Shown here: in pieces, positions 4,453 through 61,945 of the stretch
Layout: every line of letters begins with the position of its first letter
Numbering within the stretch: position 1 is the stretch's first letter
Source of the DNA: Neoarius graeffei
Lineage: Eukaryota; Chordata; Actinopteri; Siluriformes; Ariidae
Direction of reading: 5' to 3'
NCBI RefSeq assembly: GCF_027579695.1
Contig: NC_083582.1
Span: 2,552,878-2,616,877, forward strand
Length of the DNA stretch: 64,000 nt
Made by a program: the position numbers and the translations under genes
The notes under the pieces: model-generated
The model's input: only the letters and a program-made list of their open reading frames with translations
Database searches by the model: none
Told to the model about the DNA's origin: nothing

Positions 4453-4589
4453 GGTACATATAGTCAGTTGTTCACACAGCCAGTAGTCCATCAAACCATC
4501 AACTTTCCACAAAAAAATAGATAAATAAATAGCCAATTACCAATTTGACATGACATACCGTATGAAGACGACCAAGATTTAACTAAGTA

Positions 4590-8436: not shown

Positions 8437-8505
8437 CTTAGAATACCCAGATGATTTAGCTTTAGTCAGTCAGTAACTGTTACACAGTTACTGACTGTTA
8501 ACAGT
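8437..8505. other. Rearrangement junction with templated 28-mer and fold-back (copy 1)
   Basis: Directly after the hAT 3' end comes a 28-bp piece (8437-8464) identical to 6367-6394 upstream of the element. Next is a perfect 13-bp inverted repeat, CAGTCAGTAACTG (8467-8479) and its complement (8485-8497), with a 5-bp loop, then the 12-bp palindrome ACTGTTAACAGT (8494-8505). Satellite follows. The expected right target duplication CCAGGACT is missing. A copied local fragment plus fold-back satellite is what template switching during repair leaves. Confidence 0.85.
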
Positions 8506-10733: not shown

Positions 10734-10870
10734 GGTACATATAGTCAGTTGTTCACACAGCCAGTAGTCCATCAAACCATCAACTTTCCACAAAAAAATA
10801 GATAAATAAATAGCCAATTACCAATTTGACATGACATACCGTATGAAGACGACCAAGATTTAACTAAGTA

Positions 10871-14717: not shown

Positions 14718-14786
14718 CTTAGAATACCCAGATGATTTAGCTTTAGTCAGTCAGTAACTGTTACACAGTTACTGACTGTTAACAGT
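14718..14786. other. Rearrangement junction with templated 28-mer and fold-back (copy 2)
   Basis: Same junction as 8437-8505: the copied 28-bp fragment, the 13-bp hairpin arms at 14748-14760 and 14766-14778, then satellite. Its presence in both copies shows the junction predates the 6.28-kb duplication. Confidence 0.85.
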
Positions 14787-17700
14787 TACACAGACACAGT
14801 TACTGACACACTGAGTCAGTTACACAGTTACTCAGTTACGGACACACTGAGTCAGTTACACAGTCACACAGTTACTGACACACTGAGTCAGTTACACAGT
14901 CACACAGTCACTAACACACTGAGTCAGTTACACAGACACACAGTTACTGACAGACTGAGTCAGTTACACAGTTACTCAGTTACTGACACACTGAGTCAGT
15001 TACACAGTCACACAGTTACTGACACACTGAGACAGTTACACAGTCACACAGTTACTCAGTTACTGACACACTGAGTCAGTTACACAGTCACTGACACACT
15101 GAGTCAGTTACACAGTCACTGACACACTGAGTCAGTTACACAGTCACTGACACACTGAGTCAGTTACACAGTTACTGACACACTGAGTCAGTTACACAGA
15201 AACACAGTTACTGACACACTGAGTCAGTTACACAGTCACACAGTTACTCAGTTACTGACACACTGAGTCAGTTACACAGTCACTGACACACTGAGTCAGT
15301 TACACAGTCACACAGTTACTGACACACTGAGTCAGTTACACAGTCACACAGTTACCGACACACTGAGTCAGTTACACAGACACACAGTTACTGACACACT
15401 GAGTCAGTTACACAGTCACACAGTTACACAGTCACTGACACACTGAGTCAGTTACACAGACACACAGCTACTGACACACTGAGTCAGTTACACAGTCACA
15501 CAGTTACACAGTCACTGACACACTGAGTCAGTTACACAGTCACTGACACACTGAGTCAGTTACACAGTCACTGACACACTGAGTCAGTTACACAGTCACT
15601 GACACACTGAGTCAGTTACACAGTCACACAGTTACTGACACACTGAGTCAGTTACACAGTCACTCAGTTACTGACACACTGAGTCAGTTACACAGTCACA
15701 CAGTTACTGACAAACTGAGTCAGTTACACAGTCAGTAGCACACTGGGTCTGTTACACAGTCACACAGTTACTGACACACTGAGTCAGTTACACAGTCACT
15801 CAGTTACTGACACACTGAGTCAGTTACACAGTCACTCAGTTACTGACACACTGAGTCAGTTACACAGTCACAGACACACTGAGTCAGTTACACAGTTACA
15901 CAGTCACTGACACACTGAGTCAGTTACACAGTCACTGACACACTGAGTCAGTTGCACAGTCACACAGTTACTGACACACTGAGTCAGTTACACAGTCACA
16001 CAGTTACTGACACACTGAGTCAGTTACACAGTCACTCAGTTACTGACACACTGAGTAAGTTACACAGTCACACAGTTACTGACACACTGAGTCAGTTACA
16101 CAGTCACACAGTTACTCAGTTACTGACACACTGAGTCAGTTACACAGTCACTGACACACTGAGTCAGTTACACAGTTACTGACACACTGAGTCAGTTACA
16201 CAGAAACACAGTTACTGACACACTGAGTCAGTTACACAGTCACAAAGTTACTCAGTTACTGACACACTGAGTCAGTAACACAGACACACAGTTACTGACA
16301 CACTGAGTCAGTTACACAGTCACACAGTTACTCAGTTACTGACACACTGAGTCAGTTACACAGTCACTGACACACTGAGTCAGTTGCACAGTCACACAGT
16401 GACTAACACACTGAGTCAGTTACACAGTCACACAGTCACTAACACACTGAGTCAGTTACACAGACAGTTACTGACACACTGAGTCAGTTACACAGTTACT
16501 CAGTTACTGACACACTGAGTCAGTTACACAGTCACACAGTTACTGACACACTGAGTCAGTTACACAGTCACACAGTCACTAACACACTGAGTCAGTTACA
16601 CAGACACACAGTTACTGACAGACTGAGTCAGTTACACAGTTACTCAGATACTGACACACTGAGTCAGTTACACAGTCACTGACACACTGAGTCAGTTACA
16701 CAGTCACACAGTTACTGACACACTGAGTCAGTTACACAGTTACTCAGTTACTGACACACTGAATCAGTCACACAGTCACACAGTTACTGACACACTGAGT
16801 CAGTCACACAGTCACTGACACACTGAGTCAGTTACACAGTCACTGACACACTGAGTCAGTTACACCGTCACTGACACACTGAGTCAGTTATACAGTCACT
16901 GACACACTGAGTCAGTTACACAGTCACTGACACACTGAGTCAGTTACACAGTCACTGACACACTGAGTCAGTTACACAGTCAGACACACTGAGTCAGTTA
17001 CTCAGTTACTGACAGTCAGTTACTCAGTTACTAACACACTGAGTCAGTTACACAGTCACACACACTGAGTCAGTTACACAGTCACACACACTGAGTCAGT
17101 TACACAGTCACTGACACACTGAGTGAGTCACACAGTCACTGACACACCGAGTGAGTCACACAGTCACTGACACACCGAGTCAGTTACACAGTCACTGACA
17201 CACTGAGTCAGTTACACAGTCACTGACACACTGAGTCAGTTACACAGTCACTGACACACTGAGTCAGTTACACAGTCACTGACACACTGAGTCAGTTACA
17301 CAGTCACTGACACACTGAGTCAGTTACACAGTCACTGACACACTGAGTCAGTCACACAGTCACTGACACACTGAGTCAGTCACACAGTCACTGACACACT
17401 GAGTCAGTTACACAGTCACTGACACACTGAGTCAGTTACACAGTCACTGACACACTGAGTCAGTTACACAGTCACTGACACACTGAGTCAGTTACACAGT
17501 CACTGACACACTGAGTCAGTTACACAGTCACTGACACACAGAGTCAGTTACTCAGTTACTGATAGAGTCAGTTACTCAGTTACTAACACACTGAGTCAGT
17601 TACACAGTCACTGACACACTGAGTCAGTTACACAGTCACTGACACACTGAGTGAGTCACACAGTTACTGACACACTGAGTGAGTCACACAGTTACTGACA

Positions 17701-20700
17701 CACTGAGTGAGTCACACAGTCACTGACACACCGAGTCAGTTACACAGTCACTGACACACTGAGTCAGTTACACAGTCACTGACACACTGAGTCAGTTACA
17801 CAGTCACTGACACACTGAGTCAGTTACACAGTCACTGACACACTGAGTCAGTTACACAGTCACTGACACACTGAGTCAGTTACACAGTCACTGACACACT
17901 GAGTCAGTTACACAGTCACACATTTACTGACACACTGAGTGAGTTACACAGTCAGTAACACACTGGGTCAGTTACACAGTCACACAGTTACTCAGTTACT
18001 GACACACTGAGTCAGTTACACAGTTACACATTCACTAACACACTAACACACTGAGTCAGTTACACAGTCTCTAACACACTGAGTCAGTTACACAGTCACT
18101 AACACACTGAGTCAGTTACACAGTCACTAACACAGAGTCAGTTACACAGTCACTGACACACTGAGTCAGTTGCACAGTCACTGACACACTGAGTCAGTTG
18201 CACAGTCACTGACACACTGAGTCAGTTGCACAGTCACTGACACACTGAGTCAGTTACACAGTCACACAGTTACTGACACACTGAGTCAGTTACACAGTCA
18301 GTAGCATACTGGGTCTGTTACACAATCACACAGTTACTGACACACTGAGTCAGTTACACAGTCACACAGTTACTGACACACTGAGTCAGTTACACAGTCA
18401 ATGACACACTGAGTCAGTTACACAGTCACTCATTTACTGACACACTGAGTCAGTTACACAGTCACTCAGTTACTGACACACTGAGTCAGTTACACAGTCA
18501 CACAGTTACTCAGTTACTGACACACTGAGTCAGTTACACAGTCACTGACACACTGAGTCAGTTGCACAGTCACACAGTTACTGACACACTGAGTCAGTTA
18601 CACAGTCACACAGTCACTAACACACTGAGTCAGTTACACAGACACACAGTTACTGACAGACTGAGTCAGTTACACAGTTACTCAGATACTGACACACTGA
18701 GTCAGTTACACAGTCACTGACACACTGAGTCAGTTACACAGTCACACAGTTACTGACACACTGAGTCAGTTACAGTCACACAGTCACTGACACACTGAGT
18801 CAGTTACACAGTCACTGACACACTGAGTCAGTTACACAGTCACTGACACACTGAGTCAGTTACACAATCACTGACACACTGAGTCAGTTACTCAGTTACT
18901 AACACACTGAGTCAGTTACACAGTCACACACACACTGAGTCAGTTACTCAGTTACTAACACACTGAGTCAGTCACACAGTCACTGACACACTGAGTCAGT
19001 TACACAGTCACTGACACACTGAGTCAGTTACACAGTCACTGACACACTGAGTCAGTTACTCAGTTACTGACACACTGAGTCAGTCACACAGTCACTGACA
19101 CACTGAGTCAGTTACACAGTCAGACACACTGAGTCAGTTACACAATCACTGACACACTGAGTCAGTTACTCAGTTACTAACACACTGAGTCAGTTACACA
19201 GTCACACACACACTGAGTCAGTTACAGTCACACAGTTACCGACACACTGAGTCAGTTACACAGTCAAACAGTTACTAACACACTGAGTCAGTTACACAGA
19301 CACACAGTTACTGACACACTGAGTCAGTTACACAGTCACACAGTCACACAGTGACTAACACACTGAGTCAGTTACACAGTCACACAGTCACTAACACACT
19401 GAGTCAGTTACACAGACACAGTTACTGACAGACTGCGTCAGTTACACAGTTACTGACACACTGAGTCAGTTACACAGTCACTGACACACTGAGTCAGTTA
19501 CACAGTCACTGACACACTGAGTCAGTTACACAGTCACTGACACACTGAGTCAGTTACACAGTCACTGACACACTGAGTCAGTTACAGTCACTGACACACT
19601 GAGTCAGTTACACAGTCACTGACACACTGAGTCAGTTACACAGTCACTGACACACTGAGTCAGTTACACAGTCACTGACACACTGAGTCAGTTACACAGT
19701 CACTGATACACTGAGTCAGTTGCACAGTCACTGACACACTGAGTCAGTTGCACAGTCACTGACACACTGAGTCAGTTACACAGTCAGTAACACACTGGGT
19801 CAGTTACACAGTCACACAGTTACTCAGTTACTGACACACTGAGTCAGCTACACAGTCACTGACACACTGAGTCAGTTACACAGTTACTGACACACTGAGT
19901 CAGTTACACAGACACACAGTTCCTGACACACTGAGTCAGTTACACAGTCACACAGTTACTCAGTTACTGACACACTGAGTCAGTTACACAGTCACTGACA
20001 CACTGAGTCAGTTACACAGTCACACAGTTACACAGTCACTGACACACTGAGTCAGTTACACAGTCACTGACACACTGAGTCAGTTACAAAGTCACACAGT
20101 TACACAGTCACTGACACACTGAGTCAGTTACACAGTCACTGACACACTGAGTCACTTACACAGTCACTGACACACTGAGTCAGTTACACAGTCACTGACA
20201 CTGAGTCAGTTACACAGTCAGTAACACACTGGGTCAGTTACACAGTCAGTAACACACTGGGTCAGTTACACAGTCACACAGTTACTCAGTTACTGACACA
20301 CTGAGTCAGTTACACAGTCACTGACACACTGAGTCAGTTACACAGTTACTGACACACTGAGTCAGTTACACAGTCACACAGTTACTCAGTTACTGACACA
20401 CTGAGTCAGTTACACAGTCACTGACACACTGAGTCAGTTACACAGTCACTGACACACTGAGTCAGTTACACAGTCACACAGTTACTGACACACTGAGTCA
20501 GTTACACAGACACACAGTCACTGACACACTGAGTCAGTTACACAGTCAAACAGTTACTGACACACTGAGTCAGTTACACAGTCAGTAGCATACTGGGTCT
20601 GTTACACAATCACACAGTCACTGACACACTGAGTCAGTTACACAGTCACTGACACACTGAGTCAGTTACACAGTCACTGACACACTGAGTCAGTTACACA

Positions 20701-23700
20701 GTCACTGACACACTGAGTCAGTTACACAGTCACTGACACACTGAGTCAGTTACACAGTCACTGACACACTGAGTCAGTTACACAGTCACTGACACACTGA
20801 GTCAGTTACACAGTCACTGACACACTGAGTCAGTTACACAGTCACTGACACACTGAGTCAGTTACACAGTCACTGACACACTGAGTCAGTTACACAGTCA
20901 CTGACACACTGAGTCAGTTACACAGTCACTGACACACTGAGTCAGTTACACAGTCACTGACACACTGAGTCAGTTACACAGTCACTGACACACTGAGTCA
21001 GTTACACAGTCACTGACACACTGAGTCAGTTACACAGTCACTGACACACTGAGTCAGTTACACAGTCACTGACACACTGAGTCAGTTACACAGTCACTGA
21101 CACACTGAGTCAGTTACACAGTCACTGACACACTGAGTCAGTTACACAGTCACTGACACACTGAGTCAGTTACACAGTCACTGACACACTGAGTCAGTTA
21201 CACAGTCACTGACACACTGAGTCAGTTACACAGTCACTGACACACTGAGTCAGTTACACAGTCACTGACACACTGAGTCAGTTACACAGTCACTGACACA
21301 CTGAGTCAGTTACACAGTCACTGACACACTGAGTCAGTTACACAGTCACTGACACACTGAGTCAGTTACACAGTCACTGACACACTGAGTCAGTTACACA
21401 GTCACTGACACACTGAGTCAGTTACACAGTCACTGACACACTGAGTCAGTTACACAGTCACTGACACACTGAGTCAGTTACACAGTCACTGACACACTGA
21501 GTCAGTTACACAGTCACTGACACACTGAGTCAGTTACACAGTCACTGACACACTGAGTCAGTTACACAGTCACTGACACACTGAGTCAGTTACACAGTCA
21601 CTGACACACTGAGTCAGTTACACAGTCACTGACACACTGAGTCAGTTACACAGTCACTGACACACTGAGTCAGTTACACAGTCACTGACACACTGAGTCA
21701 GTTACACAGTCACTGACACACTGAGTCAGTTACACAGTCACTGACACACTGAGTCAGTTACACAGTCACTGACACACTGAGTCAGTTACACAGTCACTGA
21801 CACACTGAGTCAGTTACACAGTCACTGACACACTGAGTCAGTTACACAGTCACTGACACACTGAGTCAGTTACACAGTCACTGACACACTGAGTCAGTTA
21901 CACAGTCACTGACACACTGAGTCAGTTACACAGTCACTGACACACTGAGTCAGTTACACAGTCACTGACACACTGAGTCAGTTACACAGTCACTGACACA
22001 CTGAGTCAGTTACACAGTCACTGACACACTGAGTCAGTTACACAGTCACTGACACACTGAGTCAGTTACACAGTCACTGACACACTGAGTCAGTTACACA
22101 GTCACTGACACACTGAGTCAGTTACACAGTCACTGACACACTGAGTCAGTTACACAGTCACTGACACACTGAGTCAGTTACACAGTCACTGACACACTGA
22201 GTCAGTTACACAGTCACTGACACACTGAGTCAGTTACACAGTCACTGACACACTGAGTCAGTTACACAGTCACTGACACACTGAGTCAGTTACACAGTCA
22301 CTGACACACTGAGTCAGTTACACAGTCACTGACACACTGAGTCAGTTACACAGTCACTGACACACTGAGTCAGTTACACAGTCACTGACACACTGAGTCA
22401 GTTACACAGTCACTGACACACTGAGTCAGTTACACAGTCACTGACACACTGAGTCAGTTACACAGTCACTGACACACTGAGTCAGTTACACAGTCACTGA
22501 CACACTGAGTCAGTTACACAGTCACTGACACACTGAGTCAGTTACACAGTCACTGACACACTGAGTCAGTTACACAGTCACTGACACACTGAGTCAGTTA
22601 CACAGTCACTGACACACTGAGTCAGTTACACAGTCACTGACACACTGAGTCAGTTACACAGTCACTGACACACTGAGTCAGTTACACAGTCACTGACACA
22701 CTGAGTCAGTTACACAGTCACTGACACACTGAGTCAGTTACACAGTCACTGACACACTGAGTCAGTTACACAGTCACTGACACACTGAGTCAGTTACACA
22801 GTCACACAGTTACTGACACACTGAGTCAGTTACACAGTCACTCAGTTACTGACACACTGAGTCAGTTACACAGTCACACAGTTACTGACACACTGAGTCA
22901 GTTACACAGTCAGTAGCATACTGGGTCTGTTACACAATCACACAGTTACTGACACACTGAGTCAGTTACACAGTCACACAGTTACTGACACACTGAGTCA
23001 GTTACACAGTCAATGACACACTGAGTCAGTTACACAGTCACTCAGTTACTGACACACTGAGTCAGTTACACAGTCACACAGTTACTGACACACTGAGTCA
23101 GTTACACAGACACACAGTTACTGACACACTGAGTCAGTTCCACAGTCACACAGTTACTCAGTTACTGACACACTGAGTCAGTGACACAGTCACTGACACA
23201 CTGAGTCAGTTGCACAGTCACACAGTCACTAACACACTGAGTCAGTTACACAGACACAGTTACTGACAGACTGCGTCAGTTACACAGTTACTCAGTTACT
23301 GACACACTGAGTCAGTTACACAGTCACAGACACACTGAGTCAGTTACACAGTCACTGACACACTGAGTCAGTTACACAGTCACACAGTTACTGACACACT
23401 GAGTCAGTTACACAGTTACTCAGTTACTGACACTCTGAGTCAGTTACAGTCACTCAGTTACTGACACACTGAGTCAGTTACACAGTCACACAGTTACTCA
23501 GTTACTGACACACTGAGTCAGTCACACAGTTACTGACACACTGAGTCAGGTACACAGTCACTGACACACTGAGTCAGTCACACAGTCACTGACACACTGA
23601 GTCAGTCACACAGTCACTGACACTGAGTCAGTCACACAGTCACTGACACACTGAGTCAGTCACACAGTCACTGACACACTGAGTCAGTCACACAGTCACT

Positions 23701-25079
23701 GACACACTGAGTCAGTCACACAGTCACTGACACACTGAGTCAGTCACACAGTCACTGACACACTGAGTCAGTCACACAGTCACTGACACACTGAGTCAGT
23801 CGCTCAGTCACTGACACACTGAGTCAGTCGCTCAGTCACTGACACACTGAGTCAGTCGCTCAGTCACTGACACACTGAGTCAGTTACACAGTCACTGACA
23901 CACTGAGTCAGTTACACAGTCACTGACACACTGAGTCAGTTACACAGTCACTGACACACTGAGTCAGTTACACAGTCACTGACACACTGAGTCAGTTACA
24001 CAGTCACTGACACACTGAGTCAGTTACACAGTCACTGACACACTGAGTCAGTTACACAGTCACTGACACACTGAGTCAGTTACACAGTCACACATTTACT
24101 GACACACTGAGTCAGTTACACAGTCAGTAACACACTCGGTCAGTTACACAGTCACACAGTTACACAGTCACTAACACACTGAGTCAGTTACACAGTCACT
24201 AACACACTGAGTCAGTTACACAGTCACTAACACACTGAGTCAGTTACACAGTCACTGACACACTGAGTCAGTTACACAGTCACTGACACACTGAGTCAGT
24301 TACACAGTCACTGACACACTGAGTCAGTTACACAGTCACTGACACACTGAGTCAGTTACACAGTCACTGACACACTGAGTCAGTTACACAGTCACTGACA
24401 CACTGAGTCAGTTACACAGTCACTGACACACTGAGTCAGTTACACAGTCACTGACACACTGAGTCAGTTACACAGTCACTGACACACTGAGTCAGTTACA
24501 CAGTCACTGACACACTGAGTCAGTTACACAGTCACACATTTACTGACACACTGAGTCAGTTACACAGTCAGTAACACACTCGGTCAGTTACACAGTCACA
24601 CAGTTACACAGTCACTAACACACTGAGTCAGTTACACAGTCACTAACACACTGAGTCAGTTACACAGTCACTAACACACTGAGTCAGTTACACAGTCACT
24701 AACACACTGAGTCAGTTACACAGTCACTAACACACTGAGTCAGTTACACAGTCACTAACACACTGAGTCAGTTACACAGTCACACAGTTACTGACACACT
24801 GAGTCAGTTACACAGTCACAGACACACTGAGTCAGTTACACAGTCACAGACACACTGAGTCAGTTACACAGTCACACAGTTACTGACACACTGAGTCAGT
24901 TACACAGTTGCACAGTCACTAACACACTGAGTCAGTTACACAGACACACACTTACTGACACACTGAGTCAGTTACACAGTCACACAGTTACTCAGTTACT
25001 GACACACTGAGTCAGTTACGCAGTGACACAGTTACTCAGTTACTGACACACTGAGTCAGTTACACAGTCACTCACACAC
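14746..25079. repeat. 28-bp satellite array C (largest)
   Basis: About 10.3 kb of the same satellite. The part at about 20,610-22,800 is a run of roughly 78 near-identical 28-bp units, much more uniform than the edges, which fits recent expansion or unequal exchange in the middle of the array. Marker variants such as GTCAGTAGCATACTGGG recur at about 18300, 20580 and 22910, pointing to larger repeat blocks of about 2.3 kb. The right end (24,080-25,079) carries the same ordered variants as the ends of arrays A and B. Confidence 0.96.
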
Positions 25080-25217
25080 GGGTACATATAGTCAGTTGTT
25101 CACACAGCCAGTAGTCCATCAAACCATCAACTTTCCACAAAAAAATAGATAAATAAATAGCCAATTACCAATTTGACATGACATACCGTATGAAGACGAC
25201 CAAGATTTAACTAAGTA

Positions 25218-26820
25218 CAACCCCGATTCCAAAAAAGTTGGGACAAAGTACAAATTGTAAATAAAAACGGAATGCAATGATGTGGAAGTTTCAAAATTCC
25301 ATATTTTATTCAGAATAGAACATAGATGACATATCAAATGTTTAAACTGAGAAAATGTATCATTTAAAGAGAAAAATTAGGTGATTTTAAATTTCACGAC
25401 AACAACACCTCAAAAAAGTTGGGACAAGGCCATGTTTCCCACTGTGAGACATCCCCTTTTCTCTTTACAACAGTCTGTAAACGTCTGGGGACTGAGGAGA
25501 CAAGTTGCTCAAGTTTAGGGATAGGAATGTTAACCCATTCTTGTCTAATGTAGGATTCTAGTTGCTCAACTGTCTTAGGTCTTTTTTTGTCGTATCTTCC
25601 GTTTTATGATGCACCAAATGTTTTCTATGGGTGAAAGATCTGGACTGCAGGCTGGCCAGTTCAGTACCCGGACCCTTCTTCTACGCAGCCATGATGCTGT
25701 AATTGATGCAGTATGTGGTTTGGCATTGTCATGTTGGAAAATGCAAGGTCTTCCCTGAAAGAGACGTCGTCTGGATGGGAGCGTATGTTGCTCTAGAACC
25801 TGGATATACCTTTCAGCATTGATGGTGTCTTTCCAGATGTGTAAGCTGCCCATGCCACACGCACTAATGCAACCCCATACCATCAGAGATGCAGGCTTCT
25901 GAACTGAGCGCTGATAACAACTCGGGTCGTCCTTCTCCTCTTTAGTCCGAATGACACGGCGTCCCTGATTTCCATAAAGAACTTCAAATTTTGATTCGTC
26001 TGACCACAGAACAGTTTTCCACTTTGCCACAGTCCATTTTAAATGAGCCTTGGCCCAGAGAAGACGTCTGCGCTTCTGGATCATGTTTAGATACGGCTTC
26101 TTCTTTGAACTATAGAGTTTTAGCTGGCAACGGTGGATGGCACGGTGAATTGCGTTCAGAGAAATGTTCTCTGGAAATATTCCTTAGCCCATTTTGTGAT
26201 TTCCAATACAGAAGCATGCCTGTATGTGATGCAGTGCCGTCTAAGGGCCCGAAGATCACGGGCACCCAGTATGGTTTTCCGGCCTTGACCCTTACGCACA
26301 GAGATTCTTCCAGATTCTCTGAATCTTTTGATGATATTATGCACTGTAGATGATGATATGTTCAAACTCTTTGCAATTTTACACTGTCGAACTCCTTTCT
26401 GATATTGCTCCACTATTTGTCGGCGCAGAATTAGGGGGATTGGTGATCCTCTTCCCATCTTTACTTCTGAGAGCCGCTGCCACTCCAAGATGCTCTTTTT
26501 ATACCCAATCATGTTAATGACCTATTGCCAATTGACCGAATGAGTTGCAATTTGGTCCTCCAGCTGTTCCTTTTTTGTACCTTTAACTTTTCCAGCCTCT
26601 TATTGCCCCTGTCCCAACTTTTTTGAGATGTGTTGCGGTCATGAAATTTCAAATGAGCCAATATTTGGCATGAAATTTCAAGATGTCTCGCTTTCGACAT
26701 TTGATATGTTGTCTATGTTCTATTGTGAATACAATATCAGTTTTTGAGATTTGTAAATTATTGCATTCCATTTTGATTTACAATTTGTACTTTGTCCCAA
26801 CTTTTTTGGAATCAGGGTTG
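25218..26820 (-). mobile_element. Tc1-like DNA transposon, copy 3
   Basis: Same element as copies 1 and 2 with TA at both ends. It is 1,603 bp because of a 2-bp deletion near 25405 in the left inverted end, and it carries a few substitutions. The flanking sequence is shared with the other copies. Confidence 0.93.
25575..26512 (-). pseudogene. Tc1-like transposase, frameshifted (copy 3)
   Basis: Pieces at 26156-26512 and 25575-26084 on the minus strand. The catalytic Asp, Asp and Glu are all present, with the same interruption between the pieces as in the other two copies. Confidence 0.92.
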
Positions 26821-30377: not shown

Positions 30378-32982
30378 AGTGTGAGCGCCAGTGACCATCA
30401 AGCAAGTCAGGGTAGCAGTGTCCTGGACATTGGGAGTGCACCATACCAGCCTGATGCAAAATTCATTTCAGCACAGCAGCTGTCCAATACGAGGCTGCTG
30501 TTTCAGGCCAAATGGTTTAGTCTCTATCCATGGCTGCATTATAGCCCCACCATACAAAAAGTTCTTTGTTTTGAGTGTGTCAAAGCCTTTACGATCAAAA
30601 AGACCTCCCTAGAAAAAAACATGATCCTGCATTTAGCCTAAATGGTTTTGGCAATTGGAAAAATGCTTCTGAGAGCTTTACCCGCCATCAAAATAGCAAA
30701 GCACACCTTCATGCGGTCACTGTGAATGCAATGGAGCAAACTCCAGTCCATACACAGCTGGCCAGTGCTTTAGCCAAGACGCAGCAGGAAGCCAGGCATT
30801 GTCTTGTGGAAATTATGGAGTGTGTGAGGTATCTGGCTAGGCAGGGACTTGCAGTGAGAGGGCATGATTCAAATGAGGGTAATTTGTTCCACCTTCTGAA
30901 GTTAAAGGCAAAGGATGACCCAGTCCTAACTTCCTGGCTGACTCGCTGCCATGATTATGTAAGTCCGCAGTGCCAAAATGAATACTTGGCTTTGTTTGGC
31001 AACACAATTGTGAGCGGAATTGCCACAATGATTAGGTCCCTCCCTGTTGTCCAATTTTCCATCATTATGGATGGAACCCAGGACATCCAGGGCAAAGAGC
31101 AGGTCTCTATATGCCTGAGATATGTTGATAAAGACCTGGTGCCAGTGGAAGCATTTCTGGGCTTGTACAATACACCAGCAACAACTGGTGAGCAGATGGC
31201 AAAACTAACTGTGGACGTGCTCCTCAGACTAAACCTGCCTATCTCAGGTTTGCGAGGACAGACGTATGACGGGGCAGCAAGCATGGCAGGGCATTTTTCT
31301 GGGGCCCAGGCAGTGCTTAAAAAGGAGCAGCCCCTGGCATTGTATGTACACTGTGGCGCACATTGTGTCAACCTAATTACACAATGTGCATGCAATTCCT
31401 CACCGTTACTGCGTGATGCGCTTCAGTGGGTCCATGAACTTGGAACACTGAGCAACCAATCCGGCAAATTTAAAGGCATACTGGCACAGCATACTGTACC
31501 AGAGGGGCCCACCAGGACAGTTAAACCACTCTGTCCCACAAGATGGACTGTCCGTGGGCAAGCTGTGCAGGTAGTCCTCAATGAATATGAGGCTATCCTA
31601 AACAGTCTGGAGGAAATGGCCTCATTTGGTTCGGACACAGGCACTAGGGCAAATGGTCTATTGGAGCGATTCCAAAAGGGGAAGACCATTCTGGGCCTCT
31701 TTCTAGCCACAGAGGTGCTCGGAGAGCTTGAGTGTTTGAACAAATTCCTGCAGAATCGTTCCCAAACAATTGCCGGCATGCAGACTGCAGTTCTATATGT
31801 AAGCTCAACTATTCAGGAGAAAAGGACTGAGGAAAAGTTTGCAGAATTGTTTGAGAAGGCAGTGCAGATGGTGGATACTTTAGGGATTGAGGCTATTGAA
31901 ATTCCTCACCAAAGAAAACCCCCTAGGAGATATACTGGTCAGGCTCGTCATCATCAGCCAAAGACAGCAGAGGAGTTCTACAGGATTGAGTTTTTCAAGG
32001 TCTTGGACTGTTTGGATATGCAGTTCAAAGACAGATTCAACCAACCTGATCTGGAGAAATTCAAACAGGTTGAGGATGTGCTCCTCACCGGTAGGCTTAA
32101 TGACACTATTGGAGAGTATCCAGAGATTGACAGGGAGAGTCTGAGGATTCAGCTTCCCATGTTTCTCAACAAGCATGCACTGAAATCAAGTGGAGAAGCT
32201 GCAGATATCCTGAGAAGGATGCCCAGTGAAGTACGTGGCCTGTTTGATGAGGTGGAGAAACTTGTTAGGCTGTTGTTAGTCATCCCTGTGGCATCAGCAG
32301 AAGCTGAAAGAAGCTTCAGTGCTTTGAAAAGGCTAAAAACCTGGCTGAGGTCGACAATGACCCAGCAGCGCCTTAACAACGTCAGCGTATGCCATGTGCA
32401 TCAAACAGCACTTGACCTCATTGATTTGAAAGAAATTGGGCAGCAGTTTGTGTCTGCTAATGACAGACGGAGGCATGTGTTTGGTGTATTTAAATAACAT
32501 TACAGACATATTCATACCCCTGTAAAAATCTGCAGATTACACTGCATTTAGATGGGTGTAAAAGTTCTAAGCATTTATGTTTACATATTTAGTTTTGCCA
32601 GTTGATAAACACAGATGCACATAAGCATGCAACAAACACTGCAATAATACAGAGATTTTTATTTATTTATTTTTATATAGTGCAAGATATTATTTATTTG
32701 TTCTTTTCTGGATATTTTTCTCTTAAATGCACAATATCCCAATAATGTAGAGATTGCATCATTTACCTGAAGTGCAAGAAGTTATTTCTTTGTTCTTATC
32801 TGGATTTGTGTTTGCTGTATAATACAGAAGATCCCAATAATAGTTATTTATTTTGATCTTACCTGGAATGTTTTTCTCTTAACTGCATAAGAGGACAAAA
32901 TGCAAAATGTATGCTAAATTTGGAAAAGGAATAAGTAAAGTGTTCTTGAGCTGTTGCGCTGAGTATGAGTGTGGTTGTGTAC

Positions 32983-37128: not shown

Positions 37129-37258
37129 GTGAGCAACACCACAACACAGAAAGATGTCCATCCTCAGCTTGTCTACATGTCTAGCATGTGGAGAAAAAGG
37201 CATTTCGGTTATTTATTTTAAATGCTGGTGATATTTTGTGTGATTTTTTTTTTCTCAG

Positions 37259-40200
37259 GAGAGAAAATCAAATGGAGTAGAAGACCTGTTGCTTCGACTT
37301 GGTCTGAAGAAGAATGATGAAGACAAACTTACCAGCACACACTTTCTTGAAATATCCAAATCCACTTTAGAGTACAAAGAGCCCAGTAAAGAGAACGAAC
37401 TGGTTCATGTTTTCATGCAACGGCTTTTGACAGGAGATTACAGAGCAAGACACATCTCTGTCAGAAACGAAACCAACGTACCTAAATCTCTGACAGGAGC
37501 TAAAGGAGGTGCTTTTGCTGATCTTTTTAAAAAACAGAATGTAAAGACTGAAAGGAAACAGGCTGAGATTCACCCAATGGATGTTCAGATGGCAGTGTTC
37601 CTTTGTGCAGATCATTTTCTTCAACAAATCATGGTGACCAAACTGGCACAGTGTCAGTATGCGATCCCTCTGCTGGTACCCAATCCCTTTAGTGATGAAA
37701 TTGAATTTCCTCTCTGGACAATGCGGCAAATCAACAAGAGCTGGAAGTCGACTGATGCTTCAGGACAAATCATCAGCGAGACTCGACCTGTTTCCAAAGC
37801 AGAAACTCCAATGGTGGCATTCTTCAGGCTTGGGTCTGTTTCCTCATCCAAGTCTCAGCTGATTAACAACCTGATTAATGAGAAGCACAACACATTTTTC
37901 CACAGACACTGTCCAGGCAGCAGCAGAAACCGTCTACTGATGGACGGAGTGGTGGAGATCGCTTGGTACTGTCCATCTGGGAAAAGCTCTGAACATTTCA
38001 CTGAATGCGTTGCTTTTTGTAATCTTCATGGTGATTCCAGCAGAGCTGTAACTCAGAGAGAGATACTTACGACCACGGCCTCTGTAAATGTTGTACTTTT
38101 GCCTAAGCTTGATGAGGATGATAATAATATGAGACTTGTAGAGGAGCTTTGCAAATCCCCAACACCTCTCATTGTTGTTCTTACTGATGAAGATAATGAT
38201 GATGAAGATGATGTGTGTGAGATCGGTACAGGAAAATACAGAGTGGAACTAAAAAGTAGAAGTCAGTCTAATGCATCTAATGTACTCAAAAATATTATCA
38301 GGAAATGTCTCTCACAAAAACACAGGACCTTCAATCTTGAGAAAATGACCAACAACTCAGAGGTCAGTGTGGATGAGCACAATGAGGCCTGTAAGAGAGG
38401 AAAGGAAGCTGCACAAAATATAATGGGTTTTCTCAAAGAAAAAGATCCACTGAGGGTAAAAGAGAAATATCTGCCCTGCCAGGGAAAACTGTGGCACGAC
38501 TGGTGCCAAACGAGCAAAGACTTACGGCGACTTCAAAGTAACAACATAGAAAACGAGCTCAGCAACAAGAAAACTGAAATGAAGGATCTCAGACGGAAAC
38601 AACAGGAACATGGATTCAGTTACCTCATGAAGTTATTTGTCGATGGTTTGATCAGTGAGAGATTAAACCTGTCAGTCAGTGAGAGAGTGTATTTCCTCAG
38701 ATGGACTGTAATTGGGCTGACTGAATTCACTTCAGAGAAACTCTCTACCATCCAAAAAGAATATTAACAAAAATGGATAGATGTGCATGACTTAAAAAAG
38801 CAAGACAAACCTGAAAAGCAAAAAACTGAACGAATAAATCTGGACGAACTGAAGGCTGAAGAATCAAACTTAAAAAAAATATCAAAAGAACTGAATGCTG
38901 CTAACTTTGGCTTGGAGCACATGCTGAGAGAGATGGGCCAGATTTATGAAGCCTCAGTCTCTGAAGAAAAAAGCACGACAGGGAACCAGGTTAGAAACGT
39001 GAATAAACTGCCTGAACTTGCTGCTAAGCTCATGATATCTGGGCACCCGATGGAGCTGATGGACGGTGATGCAGCTTATGTTCCTCTAACTTGGGTTTCA
39101 GCTGTTTTAGATGAAGTCATCAGGATACTGGGAGACCAGAGAGTTTTTGTGTTGTCAGTTTTGGGAATTCAGAGCTCTGGGAAATCCACCATGCTGAACG
39201 CCATGTTTGGGCTCCAGTTTGCAGTCAGTGCAGGCAGATGCACCAGAGGAGCCTTTATGCAGCTGGTTAGAGTTTCTGAGGACATGAAGGAAACGTGGAA
39301 GATTGACTACATTTTAGTTGTTGATACTGAAGGTCTCAGAGCTCCAGAACTGGCTGGAAGCAACACCATCCATCATGACAATCAACTTTCCACATTTGTG
39401 GTAGGATTAGGAAACATGACTTTGATTAACATCTTTGGAGAGAACCCAACTGAGATGCAGGAAATACTCCAGATTGTTGTCCATGCATTCCTGAGGATGA
39501 AGAAGGTCAGGCTAAACCCCAGCTGCATGTTTGTGCATCAGAATGTTTCTGATATTACAGCTAGAGAGAAAATCCTGGATGGAAGGAGAAATTTGCAGGA
39601 AACACTGGATAAAATGACTAAATTAGCAGCTAAAGATGAAGACTACTGTACAGAAAATTTCACTGATGTCATTGCATTTGATGTAGAGCGTGATGTGAAG
39701 TATTTTTCACAGCTCTGGGAGGGTTCTCCACCCATGGCACCACCAAACCCATGCTACAGCGAGAACATCCAGGAACTAAAGAGAGATATTCTTTCTCATG
39801 CAAAAACTACAGATGGCCTGAAATTATCACAGTTTCAAAAGCGTGTGAAAGATCTGTGGAATGCTTTACTGGACGAAAATTTTGTTTTCAGTTTTAAAAA
39901 TGCACAAGAGATCTCAGTGTACAGGAGACTGGAGCAGAAGTATGGGAACTGGACCTGGAGTCTGAGGAGTGAAATGATGACTATAGAAAACAAAATGCTG
40001 AACAGAGTAGCCAGTGGAAACATAGAAACAGTCCAGAGGAAAGTTCTGGAAGAAGAAATGGCAGGAACACTAAAGGATGTCCAAAATGCATTTAAACAAT
40101 ATTTTGAAGAAGACAATGAAAAGGAAACACTGATTCAGTGGAAATGCAGATTTGAGACCCAAATCCAGAACCTCCATGATGATCTAATCGAGGAAGCAAA

Positions 40201-42058
40201 GAGAAAAGTGGATGATAGCATTCAGCAGGGAAGCATGAGACAAAACCTTGATCAGCAACGTGTGAACTACGAGAAGACACTCTTTGAAAAGAGCAAAGAG
40301 CTTGCTTCAAAACTTAAAAGACAGACGAACTGTAAAACGGACACAAGTAAGGAGTTTGATTCCATGTGGGAACAATGGGTCTCTGAAATAACTAAACAAG
40401 CTCCAAAAATCAAAGATGTTGACATCTCAAACGAGATAATGGAAGTTCTGGGAGAGGTCTACAAACATGACTTGGTTTCAAATCGAAAGCGTTCTTCAGA
40501 GTATAGAGGAATTGGACGTGTCCGTGATTACAGCAGCTATATCCCAACTTACAAGAGCATGTTCAAATGGATTATGGATAAATTTTTGTGGAGAAATCCT
40601 CTTACACCAGAGAACTTAAACCAATCAATACGTGAGCTCATTAATCAGGTCACTGAAGAAACCAAAAAACAGGTGGAGTCATTTCCGTTCTCAACACAGG
40701 GATACAATTCACATTATATTCAACGCATTGCACATGACGTCAAAACCCAGGTGCAGGAATTTGAAACACGATTCAAGAAAGATCGAAAGTTATCTGACGA
40801 TGTCTCTGTCTTTAACCAAGATTTCTATGTCGATCTCTCACTTTATGTGTGTGAACAGTCAGCACAACGCATCTCAGAGCTTCACAGGAAATTCAGAGAA
40901 GTAAATGATCCACTTAATTATTTTAAAAAGAAAAGGGATGAGTATTTTAACATCTTTCAGAAATACTGTGAGGGAGCAACATCAGCAGCGATACTTGGAG
41001 ACCGGGTTTGCGGTAAACTGAAAGAAGCGATTCTTCAGAGTGTCTACAACAAGATCGCTCCATTTGTGTCTGGACAGATGAGAGAGAAACCACCATTTAA
41101 TGGGAACAGAGCTGATCTGGAAAAACACATTCTCAAGTCTTTAGCAGAGCAGAAGGGAGATAAGGATGAGAGGTTTAAAAACTACTTAATGTACATGTAC
41201 AGTCCTAAAGTCCACTTTGAGGAGTTCATCAAGGCCAGGGTTAAAGAGTTCATGGCAGCTGAAAACCCAAAAGCAGTTTCTGTAATTGAAGAGTGCATTG
41301 ATCAGAAACAGACCAGCATCATCACTGCTGCAACAAAGACGACAGATGAAGTCAAACATTTCAAAGGTGATGCAAATCAGTGGCTGGATGTTTTTACTAA
41401 GAGCCTTGCAGATGAGTTAGGAGATACGAGAGTTCAGTTGTGTGATGAAGAGTGTAAGAATAGCATTGACTTCGATGTTCTTGTGGAAGCCATAAGGAAG
41501 GAACTCCCAGCTGTTGTTAAAGAGTTAAAGAGACGTCTCAGTAAGATTTCACACTTTTCCATGGAGAAGTTCAGAGAAAGACCTGATGAGGTTCTAATCA
41601 AACAGGTCTGTGGGTGCTGCTGGAAACAGTGTCCTTTCTGTGGAGCCGTCTGTACCCACAGCCAAGAAGGTCATCCTGGAGATCACAATGCTGATTATCA
41701 TCGCTCCGCTGCAGTGACAGGAACCCATTATAGGGACACAACAATATTCCACATAGAGTTTTGCACAACAAACGTAGCAAGTGACCTCTGCTTTTACCTA
41801 TCCAGTGAATCTGAGACTCTTGTTCCTTATAAAGATTACAGGAAAGCAGGTGGGGTGTTTGCTGAATGGGGAATCTCCCCTGATTTTTCCACGTTAGCTT
41901 ACTGGAAATGGTTTGTTTGTGAATTTCAGGAAAATCTTGAAAAACACTATAACCTACAGTTTTGTGGTTACGGGGAGATTCCTGCTGAGTGGAAAAAGTT
42001 TACCCTGTCAGATGCTCTTGAAAGTTTAAGAATACTCATCTCATCTCATTATCTCTAG
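37259..42058 (+). CDS. Interferon-induced very large GTPase 1-like (gvin/VLIG) with one in-frame stop
   Basis: One large exon, as is usual for this family, opening after a TTTTCTCAG acceptor as ERKSNGVEDLLLRLGL. Family-typical segments follow: HPMDVQMAVFLCADHF, AIPLLVPNPF and FPLWTMRQI. The frame meets TAA at 38765-38767 and continues in the same frame (QKWIDVHDL) for about 1,095 codons more. That part contains the VLIG-type GTPase domain: P-loop GIQSSGKS (39164 on), the G2-like RCTRGA, and DTEGL (39323 on), followed by a long helical region. Near the C-terminus is a Cys/His cluster, CGCCWKQCPFCGAVC with later histidines. The last residues and stop come from a SINE. Very large GTPases are interferon-induced cytosolic or nuclear proteins. 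This copy is either a recent pseudogene, a null allele or affected by a base error. Confidence 0.85.
38765..38767 (+). other. In-frame TAA interrupting the gvin-like frame
   Basis: The codons on either side (QKEY before, QKWIDV after) read on in one frame with no indel, so a single base change would explain the break. It falls between the N-terminal region and the GTPase domain. Confidence 0.85.
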
Positions 42059-45216: not shown

Positions 45217-45564
45217 AAATATTAATCTTCCAGTCCTCATTCACAACTCCATACATTTTAAACTCCAATGAAATATTAATTACCTTATGAATGACCAAAG
45301 ATTTTTAAAATGTTGCTGTTTGACAGATGTAAGCCCGTGTTCTGTCGATTTTCTCGTCTTTCTCGGCGTTGTGTAATCATTGTGCACTGCGTTCACAGCC
45401 CCATTTAGAGTGATTATTGCATCTAGGGGTCAAAAATGGGAATGATCTGAATCACTAATGGAGGTCTACTGGGGAGCGAATCCCAACACCTGACCATCAC
45501 ACCTGGATGAACTTGTTGGACATCCTGTTCCAAAACTACGGGCATTAATGTGGAGTTAACTCAT
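45217..45564. other. Spacer before the CCCATAACCC satellite
   Basis: About 350 bp of apparently single-copy sequence. No gene or repeat was recognised. Confidence 0.5.
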
Positions 45565-48500
45565 AACCCACAATCACACACCCACACCCCCATAACCCAC
45601 ACACCCCCATAACCCACACCCACACCCCCATAACCCACACACTCATAACCCACACACTCATAACCCACACACCCATCACCCACACACTCACACACCCATA
45701 ACCCACACACTCACACACCCATAACCCTCACACCCATAACCCTCACACCCATAACCCATAACCCTCACACCCATAACCCATAACCCACACACCCATAACC
45801 CACACACTCACACACCCATAACCCTCACACCCATAACCCACACACTCACACACCCATAACCCTCACACTCATAACCCACACCCATAACCCTCACACCCAT
45901 AACCCTCACACTCATAACCCACACCCATAACCCTCACACCCATAACCCACACACCCATAACCCTCACACCCATAACCCACACACCCATAATCCACACACC
46001 CATATCCCACACACCCATAACCCTCACACCCACACACCCATCACCCACACACCCATAACCCACACACTCACACACCCATCACCCACACACCCATAACCCA
46101 CACACTCACACATCCATCACCCACACAGCCATAACCCACACAAGCACACACCCATCACCCACACACCCATAACCCACACACTCACACCCATGACCCACAC
46201 ACCCATAACCCACACACTCACACACCCATAACCCTCACACCCATAACCCACACACTCACACACCCATAACCCTCACACCCATAACTTACACACTCACACA
46301 CCCATAACCCTCACACCCATAACCCATAACCCACACACCCATAACCAACACACTCACACACCCATAACCCATACACTCACACACCCATAACCCTCACACT
46401 CATAACCCACACCCATAACCCTCACACCCATAACCCACACACCCATAACCTTCACACCCATAACCCACACACCCATAACCCTCACACCCATAACCCACAC
46501 ACCCATAACCTTCACACCCATAACCCACACACCCATAATACACACACCCATATCCCACACCCATAACCCTCACACCCATCACCCACACACCCATAACCCA
46601 CACACCCATAACCCACACACTCACACACCCATCACCCACACACCCATAACCCACACACCCATAACCCTCACACCCACACACCCATCACCCACACACCCAT
46701 AACCCACACACTCACACACCCATCACCCACACACTCACACATCCATCACCCACACAGCCATAACCCACACAAGCACACACCCAACACCCACACACCCATA
46801 ACCCACACATTCACACCCATGACCCACACACCCATAACCCACACACTCACACACCCATCACCCACACACCCATAACCCACACACTCATAACCCATAACCC
46901 ACACACCCATAACCCACACACCCATCACCCACACACTCATAACCCACACACCCATCACCCACACACCCATAACCCACACACTCACACACCCATAACCCTC
47001 ACACCCATAACCCACACACTCACTCACCCATAACCCATACATCCATAACCCACACACCCATAACCCACACACACATAACCCATAATCCACACACTCACAC
47101 ACCCATCACCCACACACCCATAACCCACACACTCACACACCCATAACCCTCACACCCATAACCCATAACCCACACAGCCACACACCCATAACCCACACAC
47201 TCACACACCCATAACCCTCACACCCATAACCCACACACTCACACACCCATAACCCTCACATTCATAACCCACACCCATAACCCTCACACCCATAACCCTC
47301 ACACCCATAACCCACACACCCATAACCCTCACACCCATAATCCACACACCCATATCCCACACCCATAAACCTCACACCCATAACCCACACACCCATCACC
47401 CACACACCCATAACCCACACACCCATAACCCACACACCCATAACCCACACACTCACACACCCATCACCCACACACCCATAACCCACACACCCACACACCC
47501 ATCACCTACACACCCATCACCCACACACTCACACACCCATCACCCACACACCCATAACCCACACACTCACACATCCATCACCCACACAGCCATAACCCAC
47601 ACAAGCACACACCCATCACCCACACACCCATAACCCACACACTCACACCCATGACCCACACACCCATAACCCTCACACCCATAACCCACACACCCATAAT
47701 CCACACACCCATATCCCACACCCATAAACCTCACACCCATAACCCACACACCCATCACCCACACACCCATAACCCACACACCCATAACCCACACACTCAT
47801 AACCCACACCCTCACACACCCATAATCCACACACCCATATCCCACACACCCATAACCCTCACACCCACACACCCATCACCCACACACCCATAACCCACAC
47901 CCTCACACACCCATAATCCACACACCCATATCCCACACACCCATAACCCTCACACCCACACACCCATCACCCACACACCCATAACCCTCACACCCACACA
48001 CCCATCACCCACACACCCATAACCCACACACTCACACATCCATCACCCACACAGCCATAACCCACACAAGCACACACCCATCACCCACACACCCATAACC
48101 CACACACTCACACCCATGACCCACACACCCATAACCCACACACTCACACACCCATAACCCTCACACCCATAACCCACACACTCACACACCCATAACCCTC
48201 ACACCCATAACTTACACACTCACACACCCATAACCCTCACACCCATAACCCATAACCCACACACCCACACACCCATAACCAACACACTCACACACCCATA
48301 ACCCACACACTCACACACCCATAACCCTCACACTCATAACCCACACCCATAACCCTCACACCCATAACCCACACACCCATAACCTTCACACCCATAACCC
48401 ACACACCCATAACCCTCACACCCATAACCTTCACACCCATAACCCACACACCCATAATACACACACCCATAACCCTCACACCCATAACCCACACACCCAT

Positions 48501-49720
48501 CACCCACACACCCATAACCCACACACCCATAACCCACACACTCACACACCCATCACCCACACACCCATAACCCACACACCCATAACCCTCACACCCACAC
48601 ACCCATCACCCACACACCCATAACCCACACACTCACACACCCATCACCCACACACTCACACATCCATCACCCACACAGCCATAACCCACACAAGCACACA
48701 CCCAACACCCACACACCCATAACCCACACACTCACACCCATGACCCACACACCCATAACCCACACACTCACACACCCATCACCCACACACCCATAACCCA
48801 CACACTCACACACCCATAACCCTCACACCCATAACCCACACACCCACACACCCATAACCCACACACTCACACACCCATCACCCACACACCCATAACCCAC
48901 ACACTCATAGCCCATAACACTCACACCCATCACCCACACACTCATAACCCACACACTCATAACCCATAACCCACACACCCATCACCCACACACTCATAAC
49001 CCACACACCCATAATCCACACACTCACACACCCATAACCCTCACACCCATAACCCACACACTCACTCACCCATAACCCATACACCCATAACCCACACACC
49101 CATAACCCACACACTCACTCACCCATCACCCACACACTCATAACCCACACACCCATAACCCACACACTCACACACCCATAACCCTCACACCCATAACCCA
49201 CACACTCACTCACCCATAACCCATACACCCATAACCCACACACCCATAACCCACACACCCATAACCCACACACACATAACCCATAATCCACACACTCACA
49301 CACCCATCACCCACACACCCATAATCCACACACTCACACACCCATCACCCACACACCCATAACCCACACATTCACTCACCCATAACCCACACACTCATAA
49401 CCCACACACCCATAACCCATAACCCACACACCCATAACCCTCACACCCATCACTCTCACACCCATAACCCACATACTCATAACCCACACGCTCACACACC
49501 CATAACCCTCACACCCATAACCCTCACACCCATCACCCTCACACCCATAACCCTCACACCCATAACCCACACACTCATAACCCACACGCTCACACACCCA
49601 TAACCCACACAGCCATAACCCTCACACCCATCACCCTCACACCCATAACCCACACACCCATCACCCTCACACCCATAACCCACACACCCATCATCCACAC
49701 ACCCATAACCCACACCCCCT
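45565..49720. repeat. CCCATAACCCACACA minisatellite array, G-rich complement
   Basis: About 4.15 kb built from 14-16-bp units of ACACACCCATAACCC and variants (CTCACACC, CATCACCC, AATCCACA). The complement reads GGGTTATGGGTGTGTGGG, so adjacent units supply four G-triplets with loops of 4-5 bases. Larger blocks repeat: an AGCCATAACCCACACAAGC landmark occurs near 46125, 46757, 47588, 48053 and 48678, and stretches around 46340-46800 and 48290-48720 match at a shift of about 1.92 kb. Frames reading GYGCVGYGC or VWVMGV are repeat translations. Confidence 0.95.
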
Positions 49721-60966: not shown

Positions 60967-61294
60967 GCTCTCTCTCTCTCTCTCTCTCTCACACACTCAA
61001 TCTCTCTCTCACTCACTCACACTCTCTCAATCTCTGTCTCTCTCTCTAAATCTCTCTCTATATCTCACTCACTCTCTCACACACACACTCTCTCTCTCTC
61101 TCTCTAAATCCTTCTCTTTATCTCACTCTCACACACTCACTCACACTGTCACACACACACTCTCACTCTGTCTCTCTCACACACACTGTCTCTCACACAC
61201 ACACTCGCTCGCTCTCTATATATCTCTATATCTCTCTCTCACACACACTATATCTCACACTCTCTCCCACTTTCTCTCTCTCTCTCTCTCTCTC
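60967..61294. repeat. CT/CA-rich microsatellite in the 5' leader
   Basis: Nearly pure CTCTCTCT, CACACA and CTCTAAAT sequence reaching to three bases before the ATG. It would form a pyrimidine-rich 5' leader if transcription begins near the TATA motif. Confidence 0.9.
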
Positions 61295-61297
61295 ATC

Positions 61298-61426
61298 ATG
61301 TCCTCCTCTGAACTGGATTATATCCCTCCGTGGTGGATTTATTGGCTTCACCAGTTTCCTCACATCAATCTGAGACTCCAACAAATCAACAACAGCTTCA
61401 ACCCTCAGGAGGAAAACTACCAGCAG
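61298..61426 (+). CDS. Tweety homolog (ttyh2-like), exon 1
   Basis: ATG to a CAG|GTCAGT donor, 43 codons. The peptide starts MSSSELDYIPPWWIYWLHQF and ends NPQEENYQQ. Tweety proteins are membrane chloride/volume-regulated anion channel-related proteins. Their extracellular N-termini carry the pattern Y..PWW...LH..PH...L...NS.F.P....YQ; the DYI.PWW and LRLQ.(I/V)N form is closest to TTYH2 as I recall it. The exon ends in phase 0 just before the first membrane segment, as expected. Later exons are not in the window, so they lie beyond 64,000 or were missed. The donor is embedded in a minisatellite. Confidence 0.82.
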
Positions 61427-61945
61427 GTCAGTGTTTCACATCCTAAACTACCAGCAGGTCAGTGTTTCACATCCTAAACTACCAGCAGGTCAGCGTTTCA
61501 CATCCTAAACTACCAGCAGGTCAGCGTGTCGCGTCCTGAACTCCCGGCGTGTCGCGTCCTGAACTCCCGGCGTGTCGCGTCCTGAACTCCCGGCGTGTCG
61601 CGTCCTGAACTCCCGGCGTGTCGCGTCTTAAACTATCGGTGGGTCACGTGCTAAACTATCGGCGTTTCGCATCCTAAACTACCAGCAGGTCAGTGTTTCA
61701 CATCCTAAACTACCAGCGGGTCGACGTTTCACATCCTAAACTACCGGCGGGTCGACGTTTCACATCCTAAACTACCGGCGGGTCGGCGTTTCGCGCCCTA
61801 AACTCCCGGCGTTTCGCGCCCTAAACTCCCGGCGTTTCGCGCCCTAAACTACGAGCAGGTCAGTGTTTCACATCCTAATCTACCAGCAGGTCAGTGTTTC
61901 ACATCCTAATCTACCAGCACGCCGGTGTTTCACATCCTAAACTAG
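61414..61945 (+). repeat. Minisatellite that repeats the exon-1 splice donor
   Basis: The unit contains AAACTACCAGCAG|GTCAGTG and TTTCACATCC, 31 bp in the first copies. It begins inside exon 1, so the true donor at 61426|61427 recurs at 61457, 61488 and 61519, each exactly 31 bp apart. Later units drift (CCCGGCGTGTCGCGTCCTGA, then ACCGGCGGGTCGACGTTTCA forms), and some lose the GTCAGT donor. Confidence 0.92.

Follow-up and report, generated by a model that had tools for sequence, protein, structure and literature searches.

The splice donor that closes exon 1 of a ttyh2-like gene lies within the unit of a 31-bp minisatellite and is repeated in tandem into intron 1. In our reading the array is for the most part an unstable intron repeat that is carried passively at a small cost to splicing, and not a device; we give this reading a probability of roughly 0.6. 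The window, i.e. the complete stretch of 64 kb analyzed here, corresponds to G000:C14:2552878-2616877 of a genome of 2.34 Gb in 38 contigs, which is probably that of a bony fish, judging from its genes. Only exon 1 of the ttyh2-like gene falls within the window itself (Table 1).

Exon 1, the repeat unit and the predicted products

The best PDB match of exon 1 was tweety homolog 2 (residues 4-43 on 4-43, best E 1.1e-13). Additionally, the Pfam family Tweety (PF04906) matched exon 1 (E 2.7e-12) as well as exon 2 of a further copy of the gene on the same contig, here named copy A. Based on these matches the exon is assigned to the tweety (TTYH) family and called ttyh2-like after its best PDB match, in agreement with the original prediction.

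Exon 1 ends with CAG|GTCAGT at 61426|61427. In the tweety paralogues on contigs C21, C16 and C5 the same exon also terminates with ...YQQ, and the border reads CAG|GTCAGT, CAG|GTAAGA and CAG|GTTCCC, respectively. Exon 2 of copy A begins with SLLFLVC after a CAG acceptor, and the junction is in phase 0. Since the paralogues share the exon end and the junction to exon 2 of copy A is in phase 0, donor 1 marks a sound exon end. It looks like the ancestral donor of exon 1, with a GTCAGT that predates the repeat, because the C21 paralogue has an identical donor. A CT/CA-rich microsatellite of 327 bp (window 60968-61294) ends 3 bp upstream of the start codon, and the 5' untranslated region of the ttyh2-like gene would therefore be repetitive as well.

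The repeat unit, AAACTACCAGCAGGTCAGTGTTTCACATCCT, is 31 bp long and contains 13 nt from the end of exon 1, followed by 18 intronic nt. The repeat grew from the exact exon-intron border and the donor signal was therefore copied many times. Two earlier observations could be confirmed: the unit spans the border, starting 13 nt inside an exon whose end is shared by the paralogues, and the full units adjoining exon 1 carry a donor-like site at a spacing of 31 bp. TRF detected 31-bp arrays at 61414-61542 (4.2 copies, 94% match), 61659-61811 and 61843-61944, and stretches with a 23-bp period at 61524-61680 and 61784-61850. Unit rows were obtained by wraparound alignment, with a wrong fit for at least one row, that at 2614484 in the window block. 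No match to the exact 27-base unit pattern was found in viral contigs.

The motif CAGGTCAGY occurred seven times when both strands of the 64-kb window were searched, always on the + strand and inside the array, at the starts of the seven donors listed in Table 1. Dinucleotide shuffles of the window (array included) contained 2.52 such motifs on average, and seven or more were reached in 1 of 100 shuffles. The original prediction had listed four sites as CAG|GTCAGT at 61426, 61457, 61488 and 61519. Each position correctly gives the final exonic base for its donor, but sites three and four read CAG|GTCAGC, and three more CAG|GTCAGT (starting at 61686, 61856 and 61887) had been overlooked.

Table 1. 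Features of the ttyh2-like exon 1 and the adjoining array (window positions unless a contig is named)
Feature	Position	Strand	Remark
Exon 1 coding part, ttyh2-like gene	61298..61426	+	43 aa, MSSSELDYIPPWW...EENYQQ
Exon-proximal array block	61414..61944	+	~18 units of 31 bp, some shortened to 23 bp
Donor 1, CAG|GTCAGT	61424..61432	+	exon 1 end as in the C16, C21 and C5 paralogues
Donor 2, CAG|GTCAGT	61455..61463	+	+31 nt; predicted frame shift and stop within the stand-in exon 2 (copy A)
In-frame TAA	61475-61477	+	closes predicted products from donor 3 onward
Donor 3, CAG|GTCAGC	61486..61494	+	+62 nt; predicted stop in insert
Donor 4, CAG|GTCAGC	61517..61525	+	+93 nt; predicted stop in insert
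Further CAG|GTCAGT	61686..61694	+	+262 nt; absent from the original prediction
Further CAG|GTCAGT	61856..61864	+	+432 nt; absent from the original prediction
Further CAG|GTCAGT	61887..61895	+	+463 nt; absent from the original prediction
Insertion interrupting the array, ~4.75 kb	starts 61945, fills window to 64000; G000:C14:2614822-2619572	.	placed by array blocks and junction letters

As 31 equals 1 modulo 3, the frame rotates with each unit and the frame of the TAA is met within three units. Products were tabulated for all sites with a score of more than 2 bits. For the junction and the +31 product, copy A supplied exon 2 as a stand-in, because a run of 5,000 N lies where exon 2 of the window copy is expected. 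The predicted +0 product was open. The +31 product was frame-shifted and stopped at codon 90 in exon 2, and the predicted +62, +93, +212, +262, +432 and +463 products all stopped at codon 60, formed by the TAA of Table 1. Thus, an open product was predicted for none of the later sites scored, neither for the 7 of the window block nor for the 15 within the initial 0.7 kb of copy A. It had been proposed that later donors keep the frame at multiples of three units (93 nt). This exception fails because the +93 insert, which translates into VSVSHPKLPAGQCFTS*TTSRSAFHILNYQQ, holds a stop as the +62 insert does, and a frame-keeping +93 product was rejected.

Extent of the array and its copies on contig C14

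The array at 61414-61945 is real, but it is merely the exon-proximal part of a longer one. A confinement to this stretch was rejected, since the array resumes behind the insertion at G000:C14:2619573 and runs over 135 rows to 2623377, up to the run of 5,000 N. Further downstream, exon 3 (2636984-2637103), exon 4 (2637256-2637486) and several later exons, to 2650816, were matched in addition to exon 1. Judged from copies A and B, which are collinear with it, the window copy should have its exon 2 in the 5,000-N run. Stops at 2636948, 2636951, 2638087 and 2650670 occurred in three family-match rows, each near the edge of its row; these probably lie in introns.

In copy A, exon 1 (G000:C14:1603539-1603667) was identical to that of the window copy, here also named copy C, over 129 coding nt. 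Its array starts at the same base and comprises 302 rows (1603655-1613029). The first 15 units all keep CAG|GTCAG, and the window copy has four consecutive donors. Copy B carried 54 array rows plus exon 2; its exon 1 was not found in the 30 kb read, of which 7.5 kb are N. The proposed variation of array length therefore holds between exon copies within the genome (19 plus at least 135 rows in the window copy, 302 in copy A and 54 in copy B). Exon 3 of copy A is split by a 424-bp element (G000:C14:1627173-1627596) with an 8-bp target duplication and the inverted ends CAGAGCATTTTTT...AAAAAATGCTCTG; copies B and C are without this element.

The gene copies could be dying duplicates in which the array was free to expand once splicing no longer mattered. 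The element inside exon 3 of copy A, the exon 1 not found in copy B, the N run in place of exon 2 of the window copy and the existence of a further tweety paralogue on C21, in which this donor occurs once, would all suit such a history. However, in the window copy exon 1 is open and no stop interrupts the aligned parts of exon 3, exon 4 and the later matches, and the coding parts of exon 1 are identical in copies A and C. We therefore regard this alternative as unlikely.

An effect of the assembly, with the three places being haplotypes or misplaced pieces of one locus and copy number and layout accordingly unreliable, is very unlikely in our view. It would be compatible with the N runs in or near the copies and their cousins, which measure exactly 5,000 or 7,500 bases apart from one that reaches the edge of a piece. 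It would also fit the closeness of copies A and C, which across exon 1 and its 5' flank differ at 15 of 876 aligned bases and show 82 gap columns, mostly in the microsatellite. Against it, the exon-proximal units were read without N in both copies, and the insertions differ among copies A, B and C, whose pieces of at least 300 bp outside the arrays are ~93-99% alike (excluding a tandem repeat at 2442 kb as well as the initial piece of the 5' flank, which contains microsatellite gaps and is 91% alike). Moreover, the border-spanning unit of the window is independent of the distant copies.

The C21 paralogue allows a comparison, since it has the same CAG|GTCAGT donor with the border in a single copy. 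The border-spanning unit was not repeated in the 209 bases behind this donor, where the best other ungapped match was 15/31. From 26 bases behind the donor to the end of the 401-base piece (L045, piece positions 218-401) a GC-rich 28-bp tandem repeat of other sequence was present, without the exon border. At least two tweety genes of this genome have thus acquired repeats at the start of intron 1. Such a repeat is not a mark of the ttyh2-like array alone, an observation that fits both the passive reading and one in which any repeat would be of use.

Related 32-bp arrays without exon 1 were present at five other places of C14 that were read, two of them with two arrays each; pieces of at least 300 bp of these segments were 92-99% alike. 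The 32-bp arrays of segments L038, L039, L040, L041 and L042 (C14, 1.66-2.49 Mb) share the core AAACTACCAGCAGGTCAGT, and tweety exon 1 was not found in these segments. Two array searches gave at least 127 and at least 209 matches, and among the matches listed all were on C14, some of them outside the places read.

Further repeats and transposase sequences lie elsewhere in the window. Three large arrays of a 28/56-bp unit, CAGTTACACAGTCACTGACACACTGAGT, lie at 9-4469, 8479-10750 and 14760-25097; their right ends gave identical TRF rows (64-bp period, 6.1 copies, same score), which suggests segmental copying. A 4.2-kb array of the 15-bp unit CATAACCCACACACC at 45562-49719 shows an extreme strand asymmetry, with a GC skew of -0.98 at 46001-48000. 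Transposase sequences were found at 30575-32497 and 25575-26521, namely an open hAT-type frame of 640 aa, matching DUF4371 and Dimer_Tnp_hAT, and Tc1-like pieces on the minus strand, respectively. Furthermore, a URGCP/GVIN-like large GTPase gene (37244-42058; Pfam URGCP E 3.9e-109, URGCP_GTPase E 3.7e-121) consists of two adjacent open stretches with a stop between them.

Donor strength and decay along the array

Donor strength was estimated with a vertebrate donor matrix and a U1 end, neither of which was computed from this genome. With this matrix, CAGGTCAGT scored 4.6 bits, CAGGTCAGC 3.3, CGGGTCAGC 1.0 and CGGGTCGGC -1.6, compared to 8.7 for CAGGTAAGT. The U1 duplexes, calculated with this U1 end, had predicted energies of -7.5, -6.9, -6.2, -6.2 and -11.6 kcal/mol in the same order. 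Sites on the + strand scoring at least as high as CAGGTCAGC by this matrix numbered 7 in the 537 bp of the array versus 26 in 33,750 bp of other window sequence. By these estimates CAG|GTCAGT, with C at +3, is a modest donor and the commonest later forms are poor. To call the donors functional-looking, as was done initially, was therefore overstated: they are donor-like, but CAG|GTCAGT stays at 4.6 bits against the 8.7 of CAGGTAAGT, and many later units are weaker.

RNA folding added little. Donors 1 and 2 of the window copy were predicted to be paired, with an accessibility in the 7th-10th percentile of 759 background GT sites, and the other five window donors ranged from the 15th to the 47th percentile of the same sites. 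The RNA of two founder units folded somewhat better than shuffles (z -2.09, 8/200 as good). Two units of the later consensus (z -0.01) and a single founder unit (z -0.66) folded no better than shuffles. These predictions are weak or empty, and no inference is drawn from them.

Along the array the donor motif is lost. CAG|GT was kept in 7/19 rows of block 1 and 6/135 rows of block 2 of the window copy, in 78/302 rows of copy A and in 1/54 rows of copy B. Compared to founder unit 1, AT-to-GC changes exceeded GC-to-AT changes in all four blocks, by 32:9, 926:135, 457:94 and 169:32 over 13, 299 (copy A), 72 and 30 full-length units, respectively, with 6, 3, 63 and 24 gapped rows excluded; as units arise as copies of other units, these counts do not represent independent events. 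Most repeats at a distance from the exon have thus lost the CAG|GT donor, mainly via AT-to-GC changes. This fits a GC-biased turnover of the repeat which would erode the donor away from the exon, with coding constraint presumably holding the first copy. A special preservation of GT as support for function was rejected. In the 299 full units of copy A the GT bases were kept in 94% and 100%, which is no better than the 12 unit bases behind the donor (86-100%).

We infer the following order of events for the passive reading. A stretch of 31 bp straddling the border, with 13 nt at the end of exon 1 and 18 nt at the start of intron 1, would have been duplicated and have grown into an intron minisatellite, probably before the gene itself was copied on the contig. 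The protein would be made via splicing at donor 1. The next few units, with donors that are equal or slightly weaker, may be used occasionally, and the resulting mRNAs, predicted to be frame-shifted or stopped, should be removed by nonsense-mediated decay. In units farther away, a turnover biased from AT to GC would wear the donor from CAG|GTCAGT via CGG|GTCAGC to CGG|GTCGGC.

Some observations count against this passive reading. In the window copy, donors 1 and 2 are identical and have nearly the same flanks, and the letters therefore give no sign that donor 2 is ignored. Furthermore, drift alone would not necessarily leave a run of 15 donor-like units as in copy A, although local copying of units explains this run.

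The extra donors could instead act as a splicing rheostat, in which decoy donors divert transcripts into decay and the length of the array or a splicing factor sets the diverted share. All scored extra donors are predicted to be non-productive (7/7 in the window block, 15/15 in the first 0.7 kb of copy A), the unit counts differ widely between the copies, and elsewhere alternate 5' splice sites and decay are described as setting the mRNA level (Hps1, Ptbp1; PMC4222953). The donor letters, however, decay along the array instead of being kept, in the window copy exon 1 is separated from most units by the 4.75-kb insertion, and competition is plausible for the first few units only. We consider such a rheostat quite unlikely. 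Equally doubtful is a self-copying decoy array. Here, copies of the donor that do not keep the frame would be generated by the repeat itself, the intact units adjoining the exon would set the loss of transcript, and GC-biased turnover would wear the decoys out.

Known systems and biological meaning

The arrangement had been put forward as undescribed. It is not new in kind, since a minisatellite with multiple splice donor sites was reported for human IFI6 (6-16, G1P3) by Turri, Cuin and Porter in 1995, as cited in PMC4526556, PMC2572611, PMC2915984 and PMC3618361. In the citing text of one of these, two downstream repeat units act as splice donors and lead to three mRNA species (PMC4526556). 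The ttyh2-like gene resembles IFI6 in its minisatellite units, which carry putative alternative donors. The IFI6 unit is said to be 12 bp long and frame-keeping, with protein isoforms as products, and the keeping of the frame may be peculiar to that case. Unlike this, the unit of the ttyh2-like gene is 31 nt long and does not keep the frame, its extra donors are predicted to be non-productive and its array reaches ~302 units. The ttyh2-like gene is set apart by a unit length that is unable to keep the frame, by the hundreds of units and by two copies that share exon 1 but differ in their arrays. Within the open-licence literature listings, neither a second example of minisatellite donors besides IFI6 nor a record joining ttyh2 and a minisatellite was found.

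Other systems share single aspects with the array. In Hps1, a downstream donor feeds decay unless Ptbp1 favours the upstream one (PMC4222953). A downstream donor yielding a decay-prone mRNA is predicted for the ttyh2-like gene as well, but Hps1, in the account given there, has one pair of unlike donors, a known regulator and no tandem repeat. For DOK7 it is stated that the donor nearer to the 3' splice site is favoured, which is also the stronger one, and that the placement of SRSF1 matters (PMC5585400). By analogy, a preference for the intron-proximal donor would count against the passive reading, though in DOK7 this donor is also stronger. Intron gain via tandem duplication of AGGT-containing sequence (PMC4974935) likewise multiplies splice-site letters by tandem duplication. 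As outlined there, however, a new intron is made, whereas in the ttyh2-like gene the start of an existing intron is duplicated and no new intron is proposed. In ABCA7, an intronic VNTR affects splicing (PMC5954066), and the length of an intron tandem repeat may alter splicing in both genes; the ABCA7 repeat differs in that the relevant text does not describe it as repeating the splice donor itself.

With an identical exon followed by 4 or 15 consecutive donors in nearly the same context, the two copies form a natural series for competition between 5' splice sites. RNA from the animal would reveal whether the first, the last or the best among near-equal donors is chosen. If the extra donors are used, the length of the minisatellite would be a simple heritable control on the output of the gene; if they are unused, something would have to protect donor 1.
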